The notes below the pieces were generated by a model that had not been told where the DNA came from, did no database searches, and saw only the letters and a program-made list of their open reading frames with translations. Below are positions 9,571 through 64,000 of a stretch of 64,000 bases of DNA, in pieces. Every line of letters starts with the position of its first letter. Position 1 is the first letter of the stretch. The stretch comes from Trichothermofontia sichuanensis B231 (GTDB lineage Bacteria; Cyanobacteriota; Cyanobacteriia; B231). The position numbers were made by a program, and so were the translations under genes. The stretch spans positions 1,924,501 through 1,988,500 of the forward strand of contig NZ_CP110848.1 of assembly GCF_026240635.1 (NCBI RefSeq). Reading direction: 5' to 3'.

Positions 9571-9742
9571 TCCGGTCAAAGCCGTTGCTGCCAATGCCCT
9601 GTTGACCTCCATACAAAAGCTGTTACCCGATTCAGCCGGAGACTCAAACTAAGCTGTGCCAGAATAGGAGAGACGTTTGTTTCTATACGGCTATCAAGTC
9701 GCGATCGTCGTCCTAACTCGCCCGCCAGCGAGTGTTCCTTCT

Positions 9743-12700
9743 ATGCTCCATTTCCTGCCCCTGCTCCGGCATTTTCCTTGGGCCCCCACACGGCTACAGA
9801 TGCCCCTGCGTTGGGTGTTGATTGTGCCCTTTGTGCTGCAAACCGTAGGCATTGTGGGCATTGTGGGCTATCTGTCCTATCGGAGTGGCCAGCAAACGGT
9901 TGATCGTCTGGCCGATCAATTGCTTGCGGAGACGGCGATAAGCGTGGTTAAAAAACTGGATAGCTATTTACAAACGGCTGAGGATTTGAATCGTGCCAGT
10001 CTGGCCGCGGTTAGGATGGGGGCTGTTGATCCATCCAATTCGTCAAAGTTACATCAATACCTAATCGAGCAGCATCGAGAATTTCAAGAGATCACCAGTT
10101 TTGTTTTTGGCAATCCCCAGGGGGCATTTCGGACGATTCACCGGGTCACACCCGTTGATATTGCTACTGGGGTAACTAAGGTCAAACCATCAGAACGCTT
10201 GTTAGAGGCAGGCATTTCTGATGCACAAGAGCCCAGCCGACTGCATCTGTATACCCTCAATGCGAACGATCGCTTGGGGCGTTATTTGGAAACCCTGATG
10301 AACATTGATGTGCGTCGGATGCCCTGGTATCAAGCCGCCGCCACCACCCGAACCAGTGGTTGGACGGCTCCCCTCCAAATCGGGACGACGAATCTGCTGG
10401 CCATCAATGCCTATGCCCCTGTTCAGGACGCTGCTAACAACTTAATTGGAGTATTTACCATCCATGTTAGTCTAGCCGCCCTTAACCATTTCCTCGAAGA
10501 CCTGAGTATTAGTAAAAATGGAGAGGTTTTTATTGTTGAACGCAATGGCCTATTAGTTGCTAATTCTGCCAATCATCCTTTATTCAAAACCTTTCAAGAT
10601 CCTCGCACCCTGAGTGGCCCTAGACGCGTTGGCGATATTCATTTCCAGCGGTTTACAATCCGAGAAGTTCCGGACCCAGTCATCCAGGCAACAAGCCAAA
10701 CCCTAGAAAAGAAATTGGGTGGTTTTGATAATATAAAAGAATCAATATATCTAACATTTAGTTCAGATATTGATCGTAGTAAACCTGCTAATCTACGGCA
10801 AAGAGAACGATACTATCTCCAAATTACTCCCTATCGGAAGGCGGGTGATTTGGATTGGCTAATTATTACGGTAGTCCCTCAGAGTAACTTCATGGCTCTG
10901 ATTCGAGACAATACTTACCGAACAATGTTATTGAGTGGATTAGCTCTGGTTAGCTCGATCGCGATCAGTACTGTCATGGCCCAATGGTTAAGTCGTCCCC
11001 TCCAGCGACTAAGCGAGGCTTCTGTGCAGCTAGCCAAGGGTAATCTAACCTTACCCATTCCGACGGGGCAAGGGGTGACGGAACTGGCGGTGATGGCGCG
11101 ATCGTTTGAGCAAATGGCGATCCAACTTCAACAGGCATTGCAACAACGGGAAACTGCCCTACGGGAATCGGAAGCGCGATATGCAGCGGTTTTCCGCAAT
11201 AGTCCTGATCCGATTACGATTACGAGTCTAGAGGATGGCCGTTGGCTGGATGTCAACGATAGTTTTCTCCGGCTAACGGGCTACAGTCGTGAAGAGGTGA
11301 TCGATCACACGGCAGCAGAGTTGGGTATTTTGGTTGACCAAGAGGAAGTGGCAGCCCTGGCCAGTCAACTTCAGACCACCGGTAAAGCCCTGAACCAGGA
11401 ACTCCACTGGCGGACGAAATCGGGTGAAATCAAAGTTTCCCTGGTTTCGTGTGAAATCATTCAACTGCAAGGGCAAGCCTATGTGCTGGGAATTAGTAAG
11501 GAAATTAGCGAGATTAAGGAGGTACAGGCTGCCTTACAAGCGAGTGAAGCTCGATTACGGTTAGCGTTAGAAGTTTCCCAGGCGATGGCGTGGGAGTGGG
11601 ATTTTCCAACCCAAATCATGACCTTTAACGGTCAGGTCCCAGCCTCTACCCGGAATAGGTTGCCGTATGAGGAGGCATTGGCGTTAGTGCATCCAGACGA
11701 TCGCGCGGCACTCCACCAGGCCAACCAACGGGCGATCGCTGAGCGGGGCACGTTGCAGATGGAAGTCCGAGTGGCTGAAACGGTTCCTGCCTCGCCTACT
11801 AACCCGGCCCACTGGCGCTGGTTACAGATCAATGCCAGCGTGCTGACCGATGCCCAAGGCCAACCCACCCGCATGATTGGCATGTCCTTGAACATTACCG
11901 ATCGCAAACAGATGGAACTGGCACTCCAGGAAAGTCACGATCGTCAGGAAGCGATTCTATCGGTTATGCCAGATTTAATGTTTGTGGTCGATGCCGATGG
12001 TTGGGTTCTGGAACAAATTACGGTTAAGCCCGATCTCGACCTCTATCAAGACAATCCACCCCTGCCGCGCTCTATTTATGACAGCCCGCTTCCGGCCCTG
12101 ATTGAACGCAAAGCCAATGCGATCCAAACAGCCCTGAGCACCGGCACATTGGTTAGCTACGAGCAGATCGTTGAACGTAACCAAAAATTGCAGTTTGAAG
12201 AGGTACGCTGTATTCCCATGTCGGCAGAGCGGGTCTTAATGATGATCCGTGATATCACTGAGCGTAAACAGACTGAACTGGCCCTTCAGGAAAGTGAGAC
12301 CCGCTTTCGCACCATTTCGGATACCTCCCCAGCCAACATTTATATCGTCGTCAGGCGGGCAGAGGGGTCCTGGTATTTTGAACACATGAGTCGGGCGATC
12401 GAAACGATTCATGAACTTGCGGTTGACCAGATCCTAGCTGATGCAAGTTTGTTACTCAATCGGATTCATCCTGAGGATCGTCCGGGCTACGAAGCGGCAG
12501 TCCAGCATAGCCTGGAAACTTTAGAGCGATTTGAGTATGAGTGGCGCATTATTAACCCCTCCGGCAGAGTCAAATGGCTGCGGGGCACGTCGCAACCCCA
12601 GCAGCGCGAAAATGGGGATGTTGCCTGGTATGGGGTTGTGTTGGATATCACGGAAAGTAAAGAGTTTGAACTGGCTTTAGAGGCCAAAACCGAAGAACTC

Positions 12701-15310
12701 GATCGCTTCTTCTCCGTCGCCCTCGATTTACTCTGCATCGCCAACACGGATGGCTATTTTCTACGTTTGAATCCTCAATGGGAGCAAACCCTCGGATATG
12801 ACCTTCGAGAACTAGAAGGGGCCAAGTTCCTGGATTATGTGCATCCGGAGGATTATGAAAAGACGCTAGCGGCTCTAGCCCAGTTGCGCGGTCAACAGAA
12901 ATTACCAACCTTTACCAACCGGTATCGCTGCCGGGATGGTTCCTATCGCTGGATTGAATGGCGGGCAACCCCTGTGGGTGATTTGGTCTATGCCGCAGCG
13001 CGAGACATTACAGTCCGGAAGGAGACGGAGACCAAACTCCAGGCTGAAGTAGACTTCCGGCGCGCTATCGAAGCGACGATCGTCGAAGGCTTGGCAATGG
13101 TGGATCTGACGGGGCGGCAAACCTATGTCAACCCGGCCTTCTGTCGGATGGTGGGTTGGAGTGAGGCCGAATTAGTTGGTGCTTACCCTCCTTTTGTCTA
13201 TTGGCCCCCAGAAGAAATTGACACCATTACCCAAGCGTTTCAAGTCTGCTTGGCTGGTAATCGTCCCCCCCAGGGCTTTGAATTACGGTTTATGCGGCGC
13301 AATGGGGAACGTTTCGATGTCCTGATTTTGGATGCCCCCCTCCGTAATGCTGACGGCGAAGCGATCGCCTGGTTGGCTTCGGTCTATGACATCACGGAAC
13401 GCAAGGCTGCCCAAGAGCAATTACGGCTTTATCAGGAGCGACTCAACAGTATTCTCAATTCGATCGACAGTGCCATCTGGTCCACCACCTACCCTGACTG
13501 CACCACTCTTTATGCCAGCCCTGGCGCTGAGAAAATCTATCAACGATCGGTCACAGAATTTGAAACCAATCCTAGCCTCTGGTTAGAGGTTATTCATCCG
13601 GATGATCAACAGGCCTGTTTGGCCACCCTACCCCGGCTGGTAACGGAAGGGTCCTTCAGCATTGAGAAGCGAATTGTTCGGCCCAGCGGCGAAATTCGTT
13701 GGGTCCTCGATCGCGGCTGGGTTGTCTACGATACCAACCAGCAACCCCTACGCATTGATGGGATTACGACGGATATTACCGACCTCAAAGAGGCCCAGGC
13801 CCAAATTCAACTGTATAAAGACCGACTGGATAGCATTTTGAATTCGATCGACAGTGCCATCTGGTCCACCACCTATCCCGATTTTGTCACCCTCTACACC
13901 AGCCCTGGGACCGAAATCATTTACCAACGTCCTGTTACTGACTTCGAGACCGATCCCCGCCTCTGGTTAGAGGTCATCCATCCCGACGATCAACCCCAGA
14001 TCCTGGCCCTGCTGCCCCAACTGATCGAAGCAGGTGGCTTTACGGCGGAGATGCGCATCCTGCGGCCTAGCGGTGAAATACGCTGGATTTCCCAACGTTG
14101 TTCTGTCATTTATGATGCTGACGGCCAACCGAGCCGGATTGATGGCATTGCCATTGATATTACCGATCGCAAGCAAGCTGAAATTGAGTTGCAAGCAGCC
14201 AAGGAAGCTGCGGAAGCCGCTAGTCAGGCCAAAAGCCTGTTCCTGGCTAACATGAGCCACGAGTTGCGTACTCCTCTCAACGCCATCCTCGGTTTTACCC
14301 AACTCTTGGCTCACGATTCCCAACTGTTGCCTCAGCACCAGGAATACATTCAGGTGATTCATCGCAATGGTGAGCATCTCCTCAGTTTGATTAATGACCT
14401 TCTCGACCTGAGTAAGATTGAAGCCGATCGGGTACAAGTGCAGATGGAACCCTGTGACCTGGGCCATTTACTCGCTAACCTCTCCCAAACCTTTGCGCCC
14501 CAAGCCCACGCCAAGGGCCTAACGCTGAGTTTTACCCTCGCAGCGGACGTCCCCCGGACAATTATCACTGATCCCCAAAAGCTCAACCAGATCCTGCTGA
14601 ATTTACTCAGTAATGCGATTAAATTTACCTCCCAAGGCAGTATTCAGGTCACGATCGAACCAATCACCCTAGCACCTGAACTGGGCAGTGACAGTCCTGC
14701 GGCAGCAAGCACCACTAGCGATCCTACGCTTGCCAGCTCCCCAGCGGTGTGCTTGCAAGAAGGCCCTACCTTAAGCTTTACAATTAAAGATACAGGTGTT
14801 GGCATTGCCCCAGAGGAATTACCACTCATTTTTGATGTCTTTACGCAAGCCCAAGCTGGGAGAAAGTCCATGCAAGGCACCGGATTAGGACTCAGCATTA
14901 GCCGCAAGCTCGCTCAGTTATTGGGGGGAGAAATCCGGGTTAGCAGTGTCCTAGATCAAGGCAGTCTGTTTCAACTGATCCTCCCCTGCCAGCCAGCGGA
15001 TATGTCTCCCCAGGCGGATAGTATCTCCCCCCTGCACTTGCAACCAACGCCTAGCCAGAACTCGGCGATCGCGCTCCCAACGGCTGACTTGGCCCGGATG
15101 CCAACTACCTGGCTGGGGGACCTCTATCAGGCCGCTTTGTACGGTGACGAAGAGGCGATCGTGGCACTGACCCAGTCCCTGCCGGTTGAGGTGGTCTCCC
15201 TTGCCGATCAAATTTGTCATTTAGCCTATAACTATGAATTTGAGCAGATTAAAAAAGCGGCTGAGGCTTGCCTCCATACAACCCATCCCTCGATCTTAGA
15301 TGAGGTTTAG
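9743..15310 (+). CDS. membrane multi-PAS sensor histidine kinase
   Basis: 1855 aa from ATG 9743 (the frame is open from 9677). Order: transmembrane span ~22-46; a large periplasmic dCache-like sensor ~47-393; second span ~394-416; HAMP ~417-470; eight PAS modules ~473-1480 with PAC-type IT(D/E)RK ends; HisKA with SHELRTPLNAILG (His ~1506); HATPase with an N-box, DTGVGIAPEEL and GTGLGLSIS; then a ~100-residue tail (TWLGDLYQAALYGDEEAI) common in cyanobacterial kinases. PAS7 and PAS8 are recent duplicates. There is no receiver domain; the next gene, 36 bases away, starts with one, suggesting phosphotransfer within an operon. Confidence 0.9.
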   Translation: MLHFLPLLRHFPWAPTRLQMPLRWVLIVPFVLQTVGIVGIVGYLSYRSGQQTVDRLADQLLAETAISVVKKLDSYLQTAEDLNRASLAAVRMGAVDPSNSSKLHQYLIEQHREFQEITSFVFGNPQGAFRTIHRVTPVDIATGVTKVKPSERLLEAGISDAQEPSRLHLYTLNANDRLGRYLETLMNIDVRRMPWYQAAATTRTSGWTAPLQIGTTNLLAINAYAPVQDAANNLIGVFTIHVSLAALNHFLEDLSISKNGEVFIVERNGLLVANSANHPLFKTFQDPRTLSGPRRVGDIHFQRFTIREVPDPVIQATSQTLEKKLGGFDNIKESIYLTFSSDIDRSKPANLRQRERYYLQITPYRKAGDLDWLIITVVPQSNFMALIRDNTYRTMLLSGLALVSSIAISTVMAQWLSRPLQRLSEASVQLAKGNLTLPIPTGQGVTELAVMARSFEQMAIQLQQALQQRETALRESEARYAAVFRNSPDPITITSLEDGRWLDVNDSFLRLTGYSREEVIDHTAAELGILVDQEEVAALASQLQTTGKALNQELHWRTKSGEIKVSLVSCEIIQLQGQAYVLGISKEISEIKEVQAALQASEARLRLALEVSQAMAWEWDFPTQIMTFNGQVPASTRNRLPYEEALALVHPDDRAALHQANQRAIAERGTLQMEVRVAETVPASPTNPAHWRWLQINASVLTDAQGQPTRMIGMSLNITDRKQMELALQESHDRQEAILSVMPDLMFVVDADGWVLEQITVKPDLDLYQDNPPLPRSIYDSPLPALIERKANAIQTALSTGTLVSYEQIVERNQKLQFEEVRCIPMSAERVLMMIRDITERKQTELALQESETRFRTISDTSPANIYIVVRRAEGSWYFEHMSRAIETIHELAVDQILADASLLLNRIHPEDRPGYEAAVQHSLETLERFEYEWRIINPSGRVKWLRGTSQPQQRENGDVAWYGVVLDITESKEFELALEAKTEELDRFFSVALDLLCIANTDGYFLRLNPQWEQTLGYDLRELEGAKFLDYVHPEDYEKTLAALAQLRGQQKLPTFTNRYRCRDGSYRWIEWRATPVGDLVYAAARDITVRKETETKLQAEVDFRRAIEATIVEGLAMVDLTGRQTYVNPAFCRMVGWSEAELVGAYPPFVYWPPEEIDTITQAFQVCLAGNRPPQGFELRFMRRNGERFDVLILDAPLRNADGEAIAWLASVYDITERKAAQEQLRLYQERLNSILNSIDSAIWSTTYPDCTTLYASPGAEKIYQRSVTEFETNPSLWLEVIHPDDQQACLATLPRLVTEGSFSIEKRIVRPSGEIRWVLDRGWVVYDTNQQPLRIDGITTDITDLKEAQAQIQLYKDRLDSILNSIDSAIWSTTYPDFVTLYTSPGTEIIYQRPVTDFETDPRLWLEVIHPDDQPQILALLPQLIEAGGFTAEMRILRPSGEIRWISQRCSVIYDADGQPSRIDGIAIDITDRKQAEIELQAAKEAAEAASQAKSLFLANMSHELRTPLNAILGFTQLLAHDSQLLPQHQEYIQVIHRNGEHLLSLINDLLDLSKIEADRVQVQMEPCDLGHLLANLSQTFAPQAHAKGLTLSFTLAADVPRTIITDPQKLNQILLNLLSNAIKFTSQGSIQVTIEPITLAPELGSDSPAAASTTSDPTLASSPAVCLQEGPTLSFTIKDTGVGIAPEELPLIFDVFTQAQAGRKSMQGTGLGLSISRKLAQLLGGEIRVSSVLDQGSLFQLILPCQPADMSPQADSISPLHLQPTPSQNSAIALPTADLARMPTTWLGDLYQAALYGDEEAIVALTQSLPVEVVSLADQICHLAYNYEFEQIKKAAEACLHTTHPSILDEV

Positions 15311-15346
15311 GGAACAATTCATAAAAGGGGTAAGAGGGGAGCAGCT

Positions 15347-17173
15347 ATGTCTTGGAATTTACCGTTTATTGCTGCCGAGATTTTAATTGTAGATGATCAG
15401 CCGGATAATATTCGCACCTTAGCGGCCATTCTACATCAGCACGGCTATCAGGTCCGCAAAAGCCTAAATGGAGAGTCAGCCCTCGCATCAGCTCGCTCGT
15501 TTCCGCCGGATCTGATCCTGTTGGATATTCGTATGCCGGTTATGGATGGTTATGCCGTTTGTGCTGCTTTAAAGCAAGATCCGACTACGGCCCAAATCCC
15601 GGTTATTTTTTTGAGTGCTCTGAGTGAGGTTTCTGATAAGGCCCAGGGGTTCGCGATCGGTGCGGTTGACTACATTACCAAACCCTTCCAGGCGGAAGAA
15701 GTCCTGATTCGGATTCAGCATCAACTGCTGCTGCGCCAGCAGCAAGCCGAACTGGCGCGACTAAACCAACAATTGCAGCAATGTAACTGGGTCCTTGAAG
15801 AAAAAGTCCAGGCCCGCACCCAATCGCTCCAGGAGTTGCTGACCTTTGAAGCCACTCTTAAACACATTTCCGACCACGTCCGGGACTCCTTGAACTCTCA
15901 AGAAATTCTGCAAGCGGCTCTGGCTGAGTTAGATCAGGTCTTGGCCCTGAAGCGCTGTCATACCAGCCTTTATGCCAATGGTCAGGTCATCGCCCACCTC
16001 TATGCTCAGGCAAAGCAACATCCCGAGCATACGGCCTTGGCCTCTGTCTTGGACGTGCTACCGGGGGTGCGGGCACAACTTGCTGCTGGGGAGGCGTTTG
16101 CCTTCTGCCTCCTGCCGGGGAGGGGGAGGGAGACTGGCTTGGCGATCCTGGCTGGCCCGATCTTTGACGATCGCCGGGAGTACAAGGGGATTGCGGGGAC
16201 TTTGTGGCTATTTCGTGAGGCTGGGGCCAGCTTTAGTGATAGGGAAGTGCGGTTAGTGCAACAGGTAGCCAATCAGTGCGCGATCGCCCTGCGCCAAGCC
16301 CGTCTGTATGAGGCGGCCCAACAGCAGGTACAGGAACTCCAGCGCCTCAACCAGCTCAAGGATGATTTCCTAAGTACGGTTTCCCATGAATTGCGCAGTC
16401 CCCTGGCGACGATTAACTTGGCAGCCGAGCTAATTCCCACCCTCCTCAACCAGATGATTGAGCCGAAAACGATTCCTAGTGATAGTAAACTGTGTCGCTA
16501 TCTCACCATGCTCAAGGAAGCCTGCCATCGGGAGTTGCGCCTTGTCGATGACCTGCTCACTCTCCAAACGCTAGAGGCAGGCAACTACACCCTGCAAATC
16601 ACCCCGCTCAAACTTTCCCAATGGCTGCCGATGATCCTTGAGTCTGCCCAGGCTCTGGCTGCCTCCCAGCAGCAAACCTTAACCCTGTGCATTCCGCCCG
16701 ATTTACCTATCCTCGATACTGATTCCTCTAGCCTGAAGCGGATCATGACTGAATTGGTCCATAATGCTTGCAAATACACTCCCCACGGGGGCACAATCAC
16801 GGTTTCAGCCTCGGTGCAGGTAAGCGCTGGTGAGGCAGTTAAGCGGTGCGCCTGGCAAAAGGCTACGCAAACGGGGCACCTTGCCGTTGGGCAAACCCTG
16901 CAAATTATGGTCCACAATACCGGCAGTCATATTCCTGCGACTGAGTACGATCGCGTTTTTGAGAAATTCTATCGGATTCCCCACCGCGATCCCTGGAGGC
17001 ACGGCGGCACGGGGCTGGGGCTAGCCCTTGTCAAGAAGTTAGTTGAATCCCTGGGGGCCGCGATCGCGGTCAGTAGTGACGAGCAGGGTACCTGTTTCCG
17101 GATTCTGTTCACCCTGGCAGCCGGTAATGGTGCCAACGTTGAGGCAAATACCGTGCGTCCAGTGTCTTCGTAA
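15347..17173 (+). CDS. receiver-GAF-histidine kinase
   Basis: 608 aa. An N-terminal receiver domain (residues ~12-128) has the acidic pair in VDDQ, phospho-acceptor Asp60 (LLLDIRMP) and Lys in ITKPF. A coiled-coil linker follows (~128-160), then a GAF domain (~170-325), HisKA with SHELRSPLATI (His347), and HATPase with GTGLGLALVKKL. ATG 15347 is preceded by AAGAGGGGAG. It is co-transcribed with the 1855-aa kinase and likely receives its phosphate, then signals through its own kinase core. The GAF-HisKA half is closely related to the C-terminus of the kinase at 43959-48419, so the two are paralogous modules. Confidence 0.9.
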   Translation: MSWNLPFIAAEILIVDDQPDNIRTLAAILHQHGYQVRKSLNGESALASARSFPPDLILLDIRMPVMDGYAVCAALKQDPTTAQIPVIFLSALSEVSDKAQGFAIGAVDYITKPFQAEEVLIRIQHQLLLRQQQAELARLNQQLQQCNWVLEEKVQARTQSLQELLTFEATLKHISDHVRDSLNSQEILQAALAELDQVLALKRCHTSLYANGQVIAHLYAQAKQHPEHTALASVLDVLPGVRAQLAAGEAFAFCLLPGRGRETGLAILAGPIFDDRREYKGIAGTLWLFREAGASFSDREVRLVQQVANQCAIALRQARLYEAAQQQVQELQRLNQLKDDFLSTVSHELRSPLATINLAAELIPTLLNQMIEPKTIPSDSKLCRYLTMLKEACHRELRLVDDLLTLQTLEAGNYTLQITPLKLSQWLPMILESAQALAASQQQTLTLCIPPDLPILDTDSSSLKRIMTELVHNACKYTPHGGTITVSASVQVSAGEAVKRCAWQKATQTGHLAVGQTLQIMVHNTGSHIPATEYDRVFEKFYRIPHRDPWRHGGTGLGLALVKKLVESLGAAIAVSSDEQGTCFRILFTLAAGNGANVEANTVRPVSS

Positions 17174-59348: not shown

Positions 59349-59487
59349 TTCGGACTGCCCTCACCCCCACTCCTCTCCCAGAGCGGGCGAGGGGTTCACG
59401 AGCCAGGGTTTGGGGTTCAAGTCCCTTCGCCCCTGGTGGGAGAAGGGATTTAGGGATGAGGGGAAAAGAGTTATCTGTCAACTAGGT
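59349..59487. mobile_element. 146-bp MITE family, degenerate copy
   Basis: Matches 9280-9415 (CTCACCCCCACTCCTCTCCC, GAGCCAGGGTTTGGGGTTC, TTTAGGGATGAGGGGAAAAG). The right end reads AGTTATCTGTCAACTAGG, and the CTA supplies the stop codon of the next gene on the minus strand. The left inverted end is not preserved. Confidence 0.65.
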
Positions 59488-60801
59488 CTCCTGCTTATTC
59501 ACATCATTCTCCGTAGCTAATGGCAAGGTAAAGTAGGCTGTCAGTTCTTTTTGGTAAATACTGGTTAACCTTAGATGACCCCCATAGAGTGCGATCGCCT
59601 TTTGAGCAATCGCTAGACCTAGGCCGATCCCCTGCTCTTCATAAGTTCGGTGTTCAAACTGCACAAAAGCTCCAACTTTAGCGATTTGTTCTTGGGTCAT
59701 GCCCAGACCCTGGTTATTAATCCATAGATGCAGGCGATCATCACGACATTCACTGCGCAAGATCACAGGTGTCTGAGCAGGCGAGAACTTAAAAGCATTA
59801 TCAACTAATTCATTGATGATCGACTTAAGGTGCTTAGGATCGACTGCTAGATCCATTCCTAAAATCCGACATCTCAAATCCGCTAATCGTTTATATTTTT
59901 TCTCAGCAATAACTTCTGCAATTTCGACGATCGCCAGACTATGAACAAAATTTGGTTGTGACTTTTCAGTAAACGAAATATTAATGGCATTAGCCTTAAT
60001 TCCCTTAATTCTTTTATCTCCAGTAATAGAACTGCTCCTAGCTTCATCGAGTGAGTCATTGTCATCACCAAGTTTTGTATCCAAACTATTCACATCGTCA
60101 CTACTATGCTGATCAATAGCAGTATCTTCAGAAAGATTATTTGCAGCCAGTTCTAACTGGAGATATTGGAGGAACTTTTGGGAAAAGGTCTCTAACCGTT
60201 GCGACGATCGATAGGCAATCTGAACTAATTCATACAGGGCAGCTTGCGAGTTTGGATCAATTGCTTGTTCAAGCATTTGTAACGCAACCAGAATTCCTGT
60301 CAGGGAGGTATTCATCTCCCGGGGAAAGTTAGCAGTCAGATTACCCTGCAAAATCTGTAAGTTCTCCCGCAATAGGTTGATCGTCTTCCGTTGTAATTGT
60401 GACAAAGACTGGATACGATCGTACTGGCGTTTGATGCGCAACATTGAACGCACCCGCGCCCGCAGTTCTAAACCATTGATCGGTTTGCTAATGAAATCAT
60501 CAGCACCAGCATCTAAACAGCGGGCTAAATCTTCCTTACTATTCAGAGCAGTGACCATGATGATAGGGACAGCTTGCCATTGGCTCATCGCCTTAATCTG
60601 CCGACAGACTTCAATGCCATCCATGTCCGGCATCATCACATCTAGCAAAATGACATCAGGCGCGAAGGTCGCAAGCGATGCGATCGCCTCAGCACCACTA
60701 GCTGAATAATTTAGGTCATAACCCTGATTAGCCAGTAGGGTTTCGATAACATCAAAGTTAGTTGGTTCGTCATCAATCACTAAAATTGAAGAAATAAGCA
60801 T
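59482..60801 (-). CDS. receiver-kinase paralogue with degenerate H-box
   Basis: 439 aa. The receiver domain is intact (acidic pair IDDE, Asp54 in LLDVMMP, Lys in ISKP). The dimerisation region reads ANFPREMNTSLTGIL, so the phospho-accepting position is Arg161; the paralogue at 60997-62169 has PHELNTPLTSIL with His161. The HATPase region is still recognisable (NELVDNAFKFS, NNQGLGM, GIGLGLAIAQKA). A ~70-residue Ser/Asp-rich insert (~225-290) is new relative to the paralogue. It probably no longer autophosphorylates and may act as a dominant or scaffold partner (inference). Confidence 0.85.
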   Translation of the reverse strand: MLISSILVIDDEPTNFDVIETLLANQGYDLNYSASGAEAIASLATFAPDVILLDVMMPDMDGIEVCRQIKAMSQWQAVPIIMVTALNSKEDLARCLDAGADDFISKPINGLELRARVRSMLRIKRQYDRIQSLSQLQRKTINLLRENLQILQGNLTANFPREMNTSLTGILVALQMLEQAIDPNSQAALYELVQIAYRSSQRLETFSQKFLQYLQLELAANNLSEDTAIDQHSSDDVNSLDTKLGDDNDSLDEARSSSITGDKRIKGIKANAINISFTEKSQPNFVHSLAIVEIAEVIAEKKYKRLADLRCRILGMDLAVDPKHLKSIINELVDNAFKFSPAQTPVILRSECRDDRLHLWINNQGLGMTQEQIAKVGAFVQFEHRTYEEQGIGLGLAIAQKAIALYGGHLRLTSIYQKELTAYFTLPLATENDVNKQET

Positions 60802-60840
60802 ATACGAGAACCTGAATGTAAAAATTGATCCGACCGGCAG

Positions 60841-60891
60841 CCCTCACCCTGAATCCCTCTCCTAGAGCGGGAGAGGGATTCAGGGTGAGGG
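60841..60891. repeat. perfect 22-bp hairpin between tandem kinase genes
   Basis: Arms 60841-60862 (CCCTCACCCTGAATCCCTCT...) and 60870-60891 are perfectly complementary, with a 7-base loop. It lies in the 195-base gap between the two receiver-kinase genes and would fold in their common transcript. Confidence 0.85.
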
Positions 60892-60996
60892 TCGCACCTG
60901 TGGGCTGCCCCTATCCTACCCAGGTAAAACTGCACTTTATGATTGAGGTAAAGGCTGTACATTTTAATGAGACAGGTTAAGTACGTAAGGTATGCT

Positions 60997-62169
60997 TTAT
61001 AGCGATTGGACTATTGGCAGGTCCCAATCAACGGTTAGCCCTTGTTGGTAGGTACTAGTCAAATGCAAACGACTAGCATAAAGTTCAAGTGCTTTTTGCG
61101 CAATCCTCAGACCCAAACCAGTACCCTGTTGTTCATAGGTTTGCCGTTCAAACTGCATAAAAGCTCCAACTTTGGCGATTTGCTCTTCGGTCATACCCCG
61201 GCCCTGATTATTCAGCCATAGATGCAGACGTTGGTGATGGCGTTCGCTACGCAGGATGACGGGTGTATGATCCGGTGAAAACTTAAAAGCATTATCAACT
61301 AATTCACTGACAATCCACCTGAGATACTGGGGATTAACTGCGAGATCAACCGCTTCGATCTCACAGATGAGGTCAGCAGATCGCTGATACTGTTCGGCAA
61401 TAATCTGCGCTAGATAAACAATTTCTAAACTAGGGGTGATGATATCTTCGTCGGCTGCGAGTTTAAGAGAGTTAGTGCCATTGACGCCAGCATCATCTGT
61501 TAGATCTATTGTTACCAGTTCCAAATGGAGGTATCTGAGAAATTTTTGGGTCAGTCCTTCCAAGCGCATCGAAGATTGGTAGGCAATTTCCACCAATCCA
61601 TACAATTTGGGATCTGATTGTGGATCAACGGATCGCTTGATCAGGTTTAAAGCAAAAAGAATACTCGTTAGGGGGGTATTCAGTTCATGGGGCAGGGTAG
61701 AAGCCAGATTACCACGCAGTTCCTGCAAATTTTCCTGTAACAGGGTGATCGTATTGCGTTGTAATTTTGCGAAAGACTGGATACGATCGTACTGGCATTT
61801 GATGCGCAACATCGAATGCACCCGTGCCCGTAGTTCTAAACCATTGACGGGTTTGCTAATGAAGTCATCGGCCCCGGCCTCTAAACAGCGGGCTAAATCT
61901 TCTTTACTGTTGAGAGCAGTGACCATGATGATAGGGACAGCTTGCCATTGGCTCATCGCCTTAATCTGCCGACAGACTTCAATGCCATCCATGTCCGGCA
62001 TCATCACATCTAGCAAAATGACATCAGGCGCGAAGGTCGCAAGGGACGTAATCGCCTCAAGCCCACTGGCTGAGTAATGCAAATCATAGCTCTGGTTAGC
62101 CAGCAGCGCTTCGATGACCTCAAAGTTGGTGGGTTCATCATCCACAATCAAAATTGAAGGGGTAAACAT
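60997..62169 (-). CDS. receiver-histidine kinase
   Basis: 390 aa, ATG 62169. Receiver domain with VDDE, Asp54 (LLDVMMP) and Lys in ISKP; HisKA with STLPHELNTPLTSIL (His161); HATPase with NELVDNAFKFS, NNQGRGM and GTGLGLRIAQKA. It starts 10 bases after the stop of the hybrid kinase at 62180-64000, so the two form one operon; the degenerate paralogue follows. A 131-bp stretch of the receiver (61913-62043) is identical to the paralogue (60545-60675). Confidence 0.9.
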   Translation of the reverse strand: MFTPSILIVDDEPTNFEVIEALLANQSYDLHYSASGLEAITSLATFAPDVILLDVMMPDMDGIEVCRQIKAMSQWQAVPIIMVTALNSKEDLARCLEAGADDFISKPVNGLELRARVHSMLRIKCQYDRIQSFAKLQRNTITLLQENLQELRGNLASTLPHELNTPLTSILFALNLIKRSVDPQSDPKLYGLVEIAYQSSMRLEGLTQKFLRYLHLELVTIDLTDDAGVNGTNSLKLAADEDIITPSLEIVYLAQIIAEQYQRSADLICEIEAVDLAVNPQYLRWIVSELVDNAFKFSPDHTPVILRSERHHQRLHLWLNNQGRGMTEEQIAKVGAFMQFERQTYEQQGTGLGLRIAQKALELYASRLHLTSTYQQGLTVDWDLPIVQSL

Positions 62170-62179
62170 AGGGCAGACC

Positions 62180-64000
62180 TTAGGTGTAGTAGGGGACGAG
62201 CAACCGTTGGATGAGGTCTACTAACTGTCGCAATTTGACGGGTTTGGTCAGATATTCATCCGCCCCTGCCGCCAGGCAACGTTCCCGATCGCCTGGCATG
62301 GCCAACGCTGTTAAGGCAATGATGGGTAACTGGGCAAATTGCGGATCGCGGCGCAGTTGCTGAATTGCCATTAACCCATCCATTCCCGGCATCTGAATAT
62401 CCATCAAAATCAGATCGGGACGCTGGGCTTGGGCTTGGGCGATCGCCGCCTGACCATCACGAGCAACCATCAACTGATACCCCTTAGCCTTGAGGTAGGC
62501 AGAAATAGTCATAATATTGGCCTCGTTGTCTTCGGCCAGGAGAATTAAGGGTAGATGTCCCTGGGTTGTAGTTGGCAGCGAAACAGCCGAAATCGTAACG
62601 GCTGGTGTGGATGCTGTTTGGGGGATTGGAGAGCAAGGGAGCGTGAATGAGAAACAACTACCGCGACCGACCTCACTGCTGACGGCAACACTGCCTCTGT
62701 GTAGCTCAACAATCCGTTTAACTAACGACAGCCCTAAGCCAGTGCCCGCATACTGACGATTAAGGGCACTGTCAATCTGGACAAACGGTTGGAAAAGTTT
62801 TCCGAGATCGGTGGCGGCAATGCCAATCCCGGTATCAATAACGGCAAAGCGGATATGAGCAGTATGGGGGATTCCCTCTCGATCAGTTGTTGCGTTTGTC
62901 GGTGCATCTGTATTGCCTTCCTTGACAAGAACTATGTCGGTTCCTGTCTCTGCTAGGGTGGGTGCCTCCAGGTCAACCTGAAGGGTAATCTGCCCGCCGA
63001 TAGGGGTAAACTTAACCGCATTACTAAGCAGGTTAATCAGTACCTGACGAATACGGCGTTCATCTAGCCGGATAGCTGGTAAATTGGGGGCAACTTGCAA
63101 GCGAACCTGAATTTGTTTTTTCAGGGCCTGATCCTTAATAAACAGCAGACTGGATTCACACAGGCACTGGATATTGCTCGTTGTATATTCAAGGGTGACT
63201 TGACCTGCTTCAATTTTGTCTAAATCCAGGATGTCATTAATCAGTTCGAGTAGGTGCGTGCTACTTTTCTCAATCGTGCGCAGTACCCGCTGCTGCTGTT
63301 CATTAATCGGGCCAAAGATCCCTTCCTGTAAGCTTTCATTCATGCCCAGGATCGCATTCAAAGGCGCGCGCAGTTCATGGCTCATGTTGGCCAAAAATTC
63401 ATCCTTAAGGCGGGTCGCACGGGCCAATTCTTGGTTAGAAATGACCAGTTGTTGATTCCGTTCCGCGAGTTCCTGCTGTGCCTGTTGCCGATCGCGCAAT
63501 TCCTGCTGGAGTTGCCGGAATAGATTCGCCTGTTGAATTGCGATCGCTAATTGGTTAGCAATTTGTTGCAGGAGTTCAGCTTCCGATGGCAGCCACTGTC
63601 GCTGTTCCCGACAGGCATAGGCTACTAAAATGCCCCAAAGCTGTTTAGTGCCATTGTTGGTAACCCAACGATCCTGACTCCGACTGACGACTGCCAGCGG
63701 CACTTCCAAGAGGATCGGTGCCACGACTTTCGATCGGATTTGTCCTTCAAGATTATATTCAGTTAAACAATGGGTCCAAACATCATTGTTCACATCTGCA
63801 ACAATCCGAGGGATACCTTGCCAGTACATTTCGAGGATCTCCTGAGACCAGGTTTCATCCTCCCAGTGACGATCTTTGAGCCTTGCAAACTCCTCGGCAA
63901 CCGCCTCTTCAACGATTTGACCTCTACCATCCGGAAACACTTGGAAAATAATCACGCGATCGCAGTTCAAGACCGCCTTAACCTGCTGTGTCACCGTTGC
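62180..64000 (-). CDS. GAF-hybrid histidine kinase (5' end outside window)
   Basis: 607 residues in the window; the frame is open through the right edge (a GTG at 63994 lies inside the GAF domain, so the true start is beyond). Order: GAF (NCDRVIIFQVF...DEETWSQEI...SKVVAPIL, to ~165), coiled coil, HisKA with NMSHELRAPLNAIL, HATPase with DTGIGI and GTGLGLSLVKRI, then a C-terminal receiver (AEDNEANI, LILMDIQMPGMDG, YLTKPVK). First gene of the operon with the two receiver-kinases; a phosphorelay from its core to the receivers is likely (inference). Confidence 0.88.
   Translation of the reverse strand, partial: ATVTQQVKAVLNCDRVIIFQVFPDGRGQIVEEAVAEEFARLKDRHWEDETWSQEILEMYWQGIPRIVADVNNDVWTHCLTEYNLEGQIRSKVVAPILLEVPLAVVSRSQDRWVTNNGTKQLWGILVAYACREQRQWLPSEAELLQQIANQLAIAIQQANLFRQLQQELRDRQQAQQELAERNQQLVISNQELARATRLKDEFLANMSHELRAPLNAILGMNESLQEGIFGPINEQQQRVLRTIEKSSTHLLELINDILDLDKIEAGQVTLEYTTSNIQCLCESSLLFIKDQALKKQIQVRLQVAPNLPAIRLDERRIRQVLINLLSNAVKFTPIGGQITLQVDLEAPTLAETGTDIVLVKEGNTDAPTNATTDREGIPHTAHIRFAVIDTGIGIAATDLGKLFQPFVQIDSALNRQYAGTGLGLSLVKRIVELHRGSVAVSSEVGRGSCFSFTLPCSPIPQTASTPAVTISAVSLPTTTQGHLPLILLAEDNEANIMTISAYLKAKGYQLMVARDGQAAIAQAQAQRPDLILMDIQMPGMDGLMAIQQLRRDPQFAQLPIIALTALAMPGDRERCLAAGADEYLTKPVKLRQLVDLIQRLLVPYYT

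Follow-up and report, generated by a model that had tools for sequence, protein, structure and literature searches.

Pseudo-histidine kinases are recognised as a group and few of them are understood. A locus of Trichothermofontia sichuanensis B231 raises the question of what such a protein does when it is encoded beside a His-bearing sister with which it shares part of its receiver domain. The pair can be regarded as a natural experiment, in which apparently the same input reaches a His-bearing and a His-less output within one gene cluster, and it would allow testing if a dead kinase serves as a phosphate sink, as a docking platform or as the partner in a heterodimer. The locus was analysed in a window, i.e., a stretch of 64,000 nucleotides of the chromosome, which comprises 4,436,989 bp (PMC10172474).

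Two receiver-kinases in tandem behind a hybrid kinase

The minus strand of the window encodes, in this order, a hybrid histidine kinase, a receiver-kinase with the phospho-accepting His residue (H copy) and a receiver-kinase with Arg at this site (R copy). The features of the locus are:

62180..64000, minus strand: hybrid histidine kinase, C-terminal part, GAF-HisKA-HATPase_c-REC (ORF, Pfam)
60997..62169, minus strand: H copy, REC-DHp-CA, 390 aa, His161 present (ORF, alignment, Pfam)
61913..62043, minus strand: 131-bp tract of the H copy, identical to 60545-60675, spanning Asp54 of the receiver
61687..61689, minus strand: codon 161 of the H copy, CAT (His), from nucleotide reading
60841..60891, strand not applicable: hairpin between the R and H copies, two perfect 22-bp arms and a 7-nt loop
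59482..60801, minus strand: R copy, REC-DHp-CA, 439 aa, Arg161 where the phospho-accepting His is expected (ORF, alignment, Pfam, AlphaFold)
60545..60675, minus strand: 131-bp tract of the R copy, identical to 61913-62043, spanning Asp54 of the receiver; putative gene-conversion tract
60319..60321, minus strand: codon 161 of the R copy, CGG (Arg), from nucleotide reading

The tandem of receiver-kinases described in the earlier note is present as two ORFs, and Response_reg, HisKA and HATPase_c domains were detected by Pfam in both. The full frame of the hybrid kinase extends beyond the window end and encodes 1602 aa (L028:6681-11489). It is separated from the H copy by 10 nt, and 195 nt with the hairpin inside lie between the H copy and the R copy. 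The operon with a hybrid kinase that had been proposed is likely for the hybrid kinase and the H copy, and less sure for the R copy because the 195-nt gap with its 22-bp-stem hairpin precedes it. The hairpin core, CCCTCTCC...GGAGAGGG, occurs 290 times in the genome (reversed control: 0) and is a member of a large palindromic repeat family; the exact 22-bp arm was found in the genome in this hairpin only. In the 195-nt gap neither a promoter-like site nor a minus-strand terminator-like site was detected, and a comparison of the gap with Rfam yielded no family. As the R copy comes after a strong hairpin, it may be transcribed less.

At L028:11552-12276 two overlapping plus-strand frames, which resemble an IS1-type transposase, part the 1602-aa hybrid kinase from a second hybrid kinase of 1575 aa. 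A second pair of adjacent kinase genes is located at 9677-17173 of the window and encodes proteins of 1877 and 608 aa, both with a His-bearing H-box; the 608-aa kinase has a receiver near its start.

The family sample comprised 66 relative rows, 64 of them distinct once L031 and L041, which duplicate L163 and L156, had been removed. Of the earlier loci only L028-L032, L039 and L041 were kept, the rest being HDLRNP-type or more distant, and the membership threshold of >240 bits excluded L191 and L039. A hybrid-kinase homologue lies at most 300 nt away in 47 of the 64 distinct members (40 upstream, 16 downstream, 9 both). A His-bearing SHE motif is present in 54 of 56 partner kinases, and in the other two no motif could be recognised within the frame used. 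Three of the 17 members without partner (L029, L137 and L138) sit behind another Rec-kinase that follows a hybrid kinase; in these loci the hybrid kinase is followed by two tandem Rec-kinases that belong to different subfamilies, the first with HDLRNPL and the second with HELNTPL. Among 60 relative stretches two adjacent family members were found only in L189 (G370), and no relative carries the same His/Arg pair. The two copies of the L189 tandem (L189:7211-10169) share 42% identity; one has Gln and the other His in a gapped H-box. In a search of 36 genomes from the family that includes G076 the R copy had one match, which is not a pair. The search for relatives covered a set of 59 genomes, none of the others being nearer than the same class, and scored the best four candidates per genome, by which degenerate extra copies may be missed.

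Loss of the phospho-accepting histidine

The aligned H-boxes, NFPREMNTSLTG and TLPHELNTPLTS, show Arg161 in the R copy and His161 in the H copy, as had been read before, and the two codons, CGG and CAT, differ in two bases. Codon 166 is TCC (Ser) in the R copy and CCC (Pro) in the H copy, and this position is Pro in all 65 relatives having a residue there. Sequencing error as the source of Arg161 was considered and rejected: the codon change involves two bases and is accompanied by Pro166Ser, and the high coverage of 387x and 181x makes an error unlikely (PMC10172474). A frameshift or broken R gene was rejected as well, as there is no internal stop. The earlier note would have given up its reading if all orthologues carried His and the Arg came from sequencing error; this refutation fails on the points above, and although His prevails among the relatives, 4 of the 64 distinct ones are without it. 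Its claim of a remaining Asp54 receiver is borne out, since both copies keep Asp10/11, Asp54, Thr84 and Lys106, i.e., the full set of residues for receiver phosphorylation.

The HisKA domain of the R copy scores 21.8 bits, below the cut-off of 26.9, compared to 38.5 bits for the H copy, while the HATPase_c domain scores 64 bits in the R copy, which is above the Pfam cut-off, and 59 bits in the H copy. The R copy keeps Glu162, Asn164, Thr165, the N box and the G2 box (GxGLGL). In both copies the Asp of the G1 box is replaced by Asn, and the same Asn is found in several His-bearing relatives. The R copy is 49 residues longer, mostly by a linker insert, and the stretch from receiver to DHp shows no indel between the copies. 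The AlphaFold model of the R copy (46 sequences; mean pLDDT 80.7, pTM 0.59) is confident for the receiver and for the greater part of the ATP domain, and moderate for the DHp helices; residues 239-279, in the region of the insert, are below 50 pLDDT. With the phospho-accepting residue absent and the fold kept (Pfam, model), the R copy has the sequence and fold features of a pseudo-histidine kinase.

The H copy deviates from the family, too. It lost four residues that at least 90% of the relatives share and that are all kept by the R copy: Glu17, Ser169, Gly191 and Ser366 (H numbering) stand where the R copy has Asp, Gly, Glu and Gly. Departures from columns conserved to at least 90% amount to eight in the R copy and six in the H copy. 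The pseudo-kinase beside its active copy that had been postulated therefore stands as a His-less protein beside its His-bearing sister (tree support 100/100), but the word active is unproven for the H copy, given its own Asn in the G1 box and the four losses at conserved sites.

Position 161 is His in 60 of the 64 distinct relatives (62 of 66 rows with duplicates). The exceptions carry Gln in L142 (G051), L181 (G344) and L189 (G370) and Phe in the divergent L190 (G056). L142 differs at this site from its close relative L139, which has His, and as their branches are short (0.026 and 0.036) the loss in L142 is recent. No association was seen between His loss and the Asn in the G1 box, as all four His-less relatives have the G1 Asp. 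In the own genome 72 of 76 HATPase_c matches were examined (70 stretches and the R/H pair) and seven were set aside by eye as non-HisKA; of the 65 HisKA kinases three are without His, i.e., the R copy, L204 and L247. The HisKA-type L204 (G000:C1:3259239-3260500, minus strand) has Gln for His (MVGQELRTPLT). The likewise HisKA-type L247 (G000:C1:506142-507400, minus strand) has Arg for His (LLTRQFRTPLN) and lies near a kinase in L268 whose motif reads HHRVKNNLQ. In a published survey His is missing in 722 of 76,471 HisKA domains, i.e., in 0.9% (PMC12632262). Compared to this rate the four His-less members among 64 give a binomial P of 0.003, with relatives that are not independent and with differing methods; as the relatives are not independent, the excess is suggestive only. 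Compared to the partner kinases (0 of 54, the two motif-less frames left out) the difference is not significant (Fisher P 0.12).

Common receiver and diverged kinase halves

The R and H copies are mutual nearest relatives (tree support 100/100; branches 0.34 and 0.26) and constitute an old duplicate with dS of about 1 and a pairwise dN/dS of about 0.2 (0.205 over 1.066). Within the receivers 131 bp are perfectly identical (coding nt 127-257, including the Asp54 codon), while the genes are about 70% identical outside this tract. Permuting the whole gene 10,000 times gave identical runs of at most 46, and none of 100,000 synonymous-only permutations, in which codons for the same residue were exchanged, reached 131 bp. 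The longest identical run was 38 bp in 266 other pairs at 62-75% protein identity, 20 bp in 11 other within-genome pairs and 17 bp between either copy and the two nearest relatives. No third close copy of the tract was found in the genome, the next match being 54 bases at 89%. Since 131 bp far exceeds the best run of the 266 comparable pairs, we infer that the receiver tract was homogenised by gene conversion; as the runs in all controls are short, a family-wide constraint on codons or on the antisense strand is unlikely, and the tract is explained simply by gene conversion.

Synonymous divergence (dS, Nei-Gojobori) is 0.29 for REC residues 39-124 and 0.65 for residues 125-151, compared to 1.65 for REC residues 1-38, 1.26 for DHp and 1.44 for the ATP domain, with residues 217-275 saturated. 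Amino acid identity between the copies is 95% in REC residues 39-124, 68% in CA, 54% in DHp and 42% in residues 217-275, the linker behind DHp. Between the copies the input half has thus been conserved, unlike the output half. The homogenisation of the receivers suggests an input common to both copies. Both appear suited to respond to one phosphodonor, and the hybrid kinase located 10 bp upstream is the probable one. The contrast between the diverged DHp and the homogenised receivers speaks for a common input with different outputs. The homogenisation could also be accidental, as conversion between tandem repeats needs no selection.

The 439-codon frame of the R copy is intact, and the R copy is not visibly decaying. 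Compared with two outgroups, it has 8 and 11 unique changes in the ATP domain and the H copy 12 and 11. A faster evolution of the R copy was not seen in a relative-rate test of the DHp domain either (9 and 10 changes compared to 5 and 5 in the H copy; chi-square 1.1 and 1.7, not significant).

Possible roles of the R copy and known systems

The reading we favour, to which we give about even weight for and against, sees in the R copy a receiver-gated pseudo-histidine kinase that shares the input of the H copy and would modulate that relay, as the earlier note had suggested. The upstream hybrid kinase, or another common donor, would phosphorylate Asp54 of both copies; the hybrid kinase is put forward as donor because of the gene order and the LvrA/LvrB precedent from Leptospira. 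In the H copy, by analogy, phosphorylation of Asp54 would switch the kinase half, which would hand phosphoryl groups on. The R copy would accept at Asp54 and could not go on, either only drawing off phosphoryl groups or having its catalytically dead DHp-CA module reshaped by the phosphorylation so that it docks onto a partner. Overall, the R copy would serve the same relay as a brake or splitter, with common input and different output. Known systems offer a model for a sink (RetS/GacS), for phospho-dependent docking (DivL) and for pairing with the H copy (ChrS/HrrS). Everything beyond the intact receiver residues and the lost His is inference.

The R copy might alternatively be a functionless duplicate in decay, which lost its His under relaxed constraint after the duplication and whose identical tract is an accident of tandem-repeat recombination. 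The repeat hairpin ahead of the gene, the departures from conserved columns (eight compared to six in the H copy) and the slightly higher, not significant number of unique DHp changes (9-10 compared to 5) fit with this. However, the frame has stayed intact despite a dS of about 1, the pairwise dN/dS is about 0.2 and the CA domain changed no faster than that of the H copy (8-11 compared to 11-12 unique changes), and we regard decay as unlikely.

Somewhat less probable again is that both copies form an obligate or preferred heterodimer with one phosphorylation site per enzyme, in which the R copy gives the sound CA domain and the H copy the phospho-accepting His. The conserved residues are distributed accordingly, with Asp17, Gly169, Glu191 and the Gly at H position 366 kept in the R copy and His161 and Pro166 in the H copy, and the slightly better HATPase_c score of the R copy, the indel-free stretch from receiver to DHp and the ChrS/HrrS paralogues (PMC9491836) fit such a pairing. 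The DHp domain, which forms the dimer interface, is however the most diverged folded domain (54% identity), pointing to insulation rather than pairing, and LvrB is thought to autophosphorylate in cis (PMC13269768). To a role as phosphatase only, in which the R copy would dephosphorylate the receiver of the hybrid kinase or a downstream regulator through Thr165 at position +4, we attach the least probability. Glu162, Asn164 and Thr165 are kept, the conserved His is reported to contribute to HisKA phosphatase activity without being essential (PMC12632262) and RetS acts on the GacS receiver via its HExxT motif (PMC5992135); yet the H260A exchange in HK853 diminishes phosphatase activity (PMC5727384), and the exchange of Pro166 to Ser may alter the local helix geometry in the R copy.

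The receiver-gated pseudokinase that we favour might be one case of a wider process, in which Rec-controlled kinases of this cyanobacterial family repeatedly become receiver-gated pseudokinases. Here conversion would keep the His-bearing and the His-less receivers alike while the kinase halves diverge, thereby connecting one phosphodonor to two outputs. We consider this extension doubtful.

Among the closest known systems is LvrB from Leptospira, a Rec-kinase encoded in the same operon as the hybrid kinase LvrA (PMC5863495). It shares the REC-DHp-CA order, the His site at residue 161 and the position of the gene beside a hybrid kinase. LvrA phosphorylates Asp56 of LvrB, as reported from an assay with the LvrB H161A mutant (PMC5863495), and phosphorylation of the LvrB receiver frees the ATP domain to phosphorylate His161 (PMC13269768). 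A Foldseek search with the R-copy model gave LvrB (8vc9) as best full-length match (E 3.8e-19, 16% identity); the TM-score of about 0.3 shows that the likeness is domain by domain and not that of one rigid body. The R copy has the receiver with Asp, acidic pocket, Thr/Ser and Lys, and a long signalling helix between receiver and DHp (109-157 in the model, the last part at low confidence). The N and G2 boxes of the HATPase_c domain are present in both copies, though the G1 Asp is Asn. LvrB carries its His and is active as a kinase. In the R copy the phospho-accepting His of DHp is missing, whereas the H copy has it. A tandem His-less copy is not mentioned for LvrB/LvrA in the accessible portions of PMC5863495 and PMC13269768.

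DivL from Caulobacter also has its His replaced, by Tyr, and keeps the DHp-CA fold; its DHp-CA module reads a phospho-receiver, and the pathway on which DivL acts is that of CckA, a hybrid kinase (PMC4211667). It contains PAS domains, none of which was detected by the Pfam scan of the R copy; this carries an N-terminal receiver in their place and lies in tandem to a His-bearing homologue. RetS resembles the proposed R copy as a kinase homologue without autophosphorylation whose receiver is fed by another kinase: it takes phosphoryl groups from GacS and damps GacS (PMC5992135). RetS however keeps the His and HExxT with a degenerate ATP domain, while the R copy shows the reverse, i.e., RExxT with a HATPase_c domain above cut-off. 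ExsG also has an N-terminal receiver, which controls its kinase half, but it is of the HWE and not of the HisKA type, hexameric and active (PMC3899027). In Corynebacterium glutamicum a pseudokinase variant of ChrS is a dead kinase that alters the signalling of a paralogous kinase, ChrS and HrrS being paralogues that heterodimerise; it arose by a laboratory-evolved frameshift in the CA domain and not by natural His replacement (PMC9491836). Among the papers listed by searches of the open-licence literature none was recognisable as dealing with a Rec-controlled kinase without His or with conversion of receivers between paralogous kinases, and PMC4603909 names gene conversion once, in passing. 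The parts of the R copy are ordinary; what is unusual is that a tandem pair, a lost His and a converted receiver occur together.
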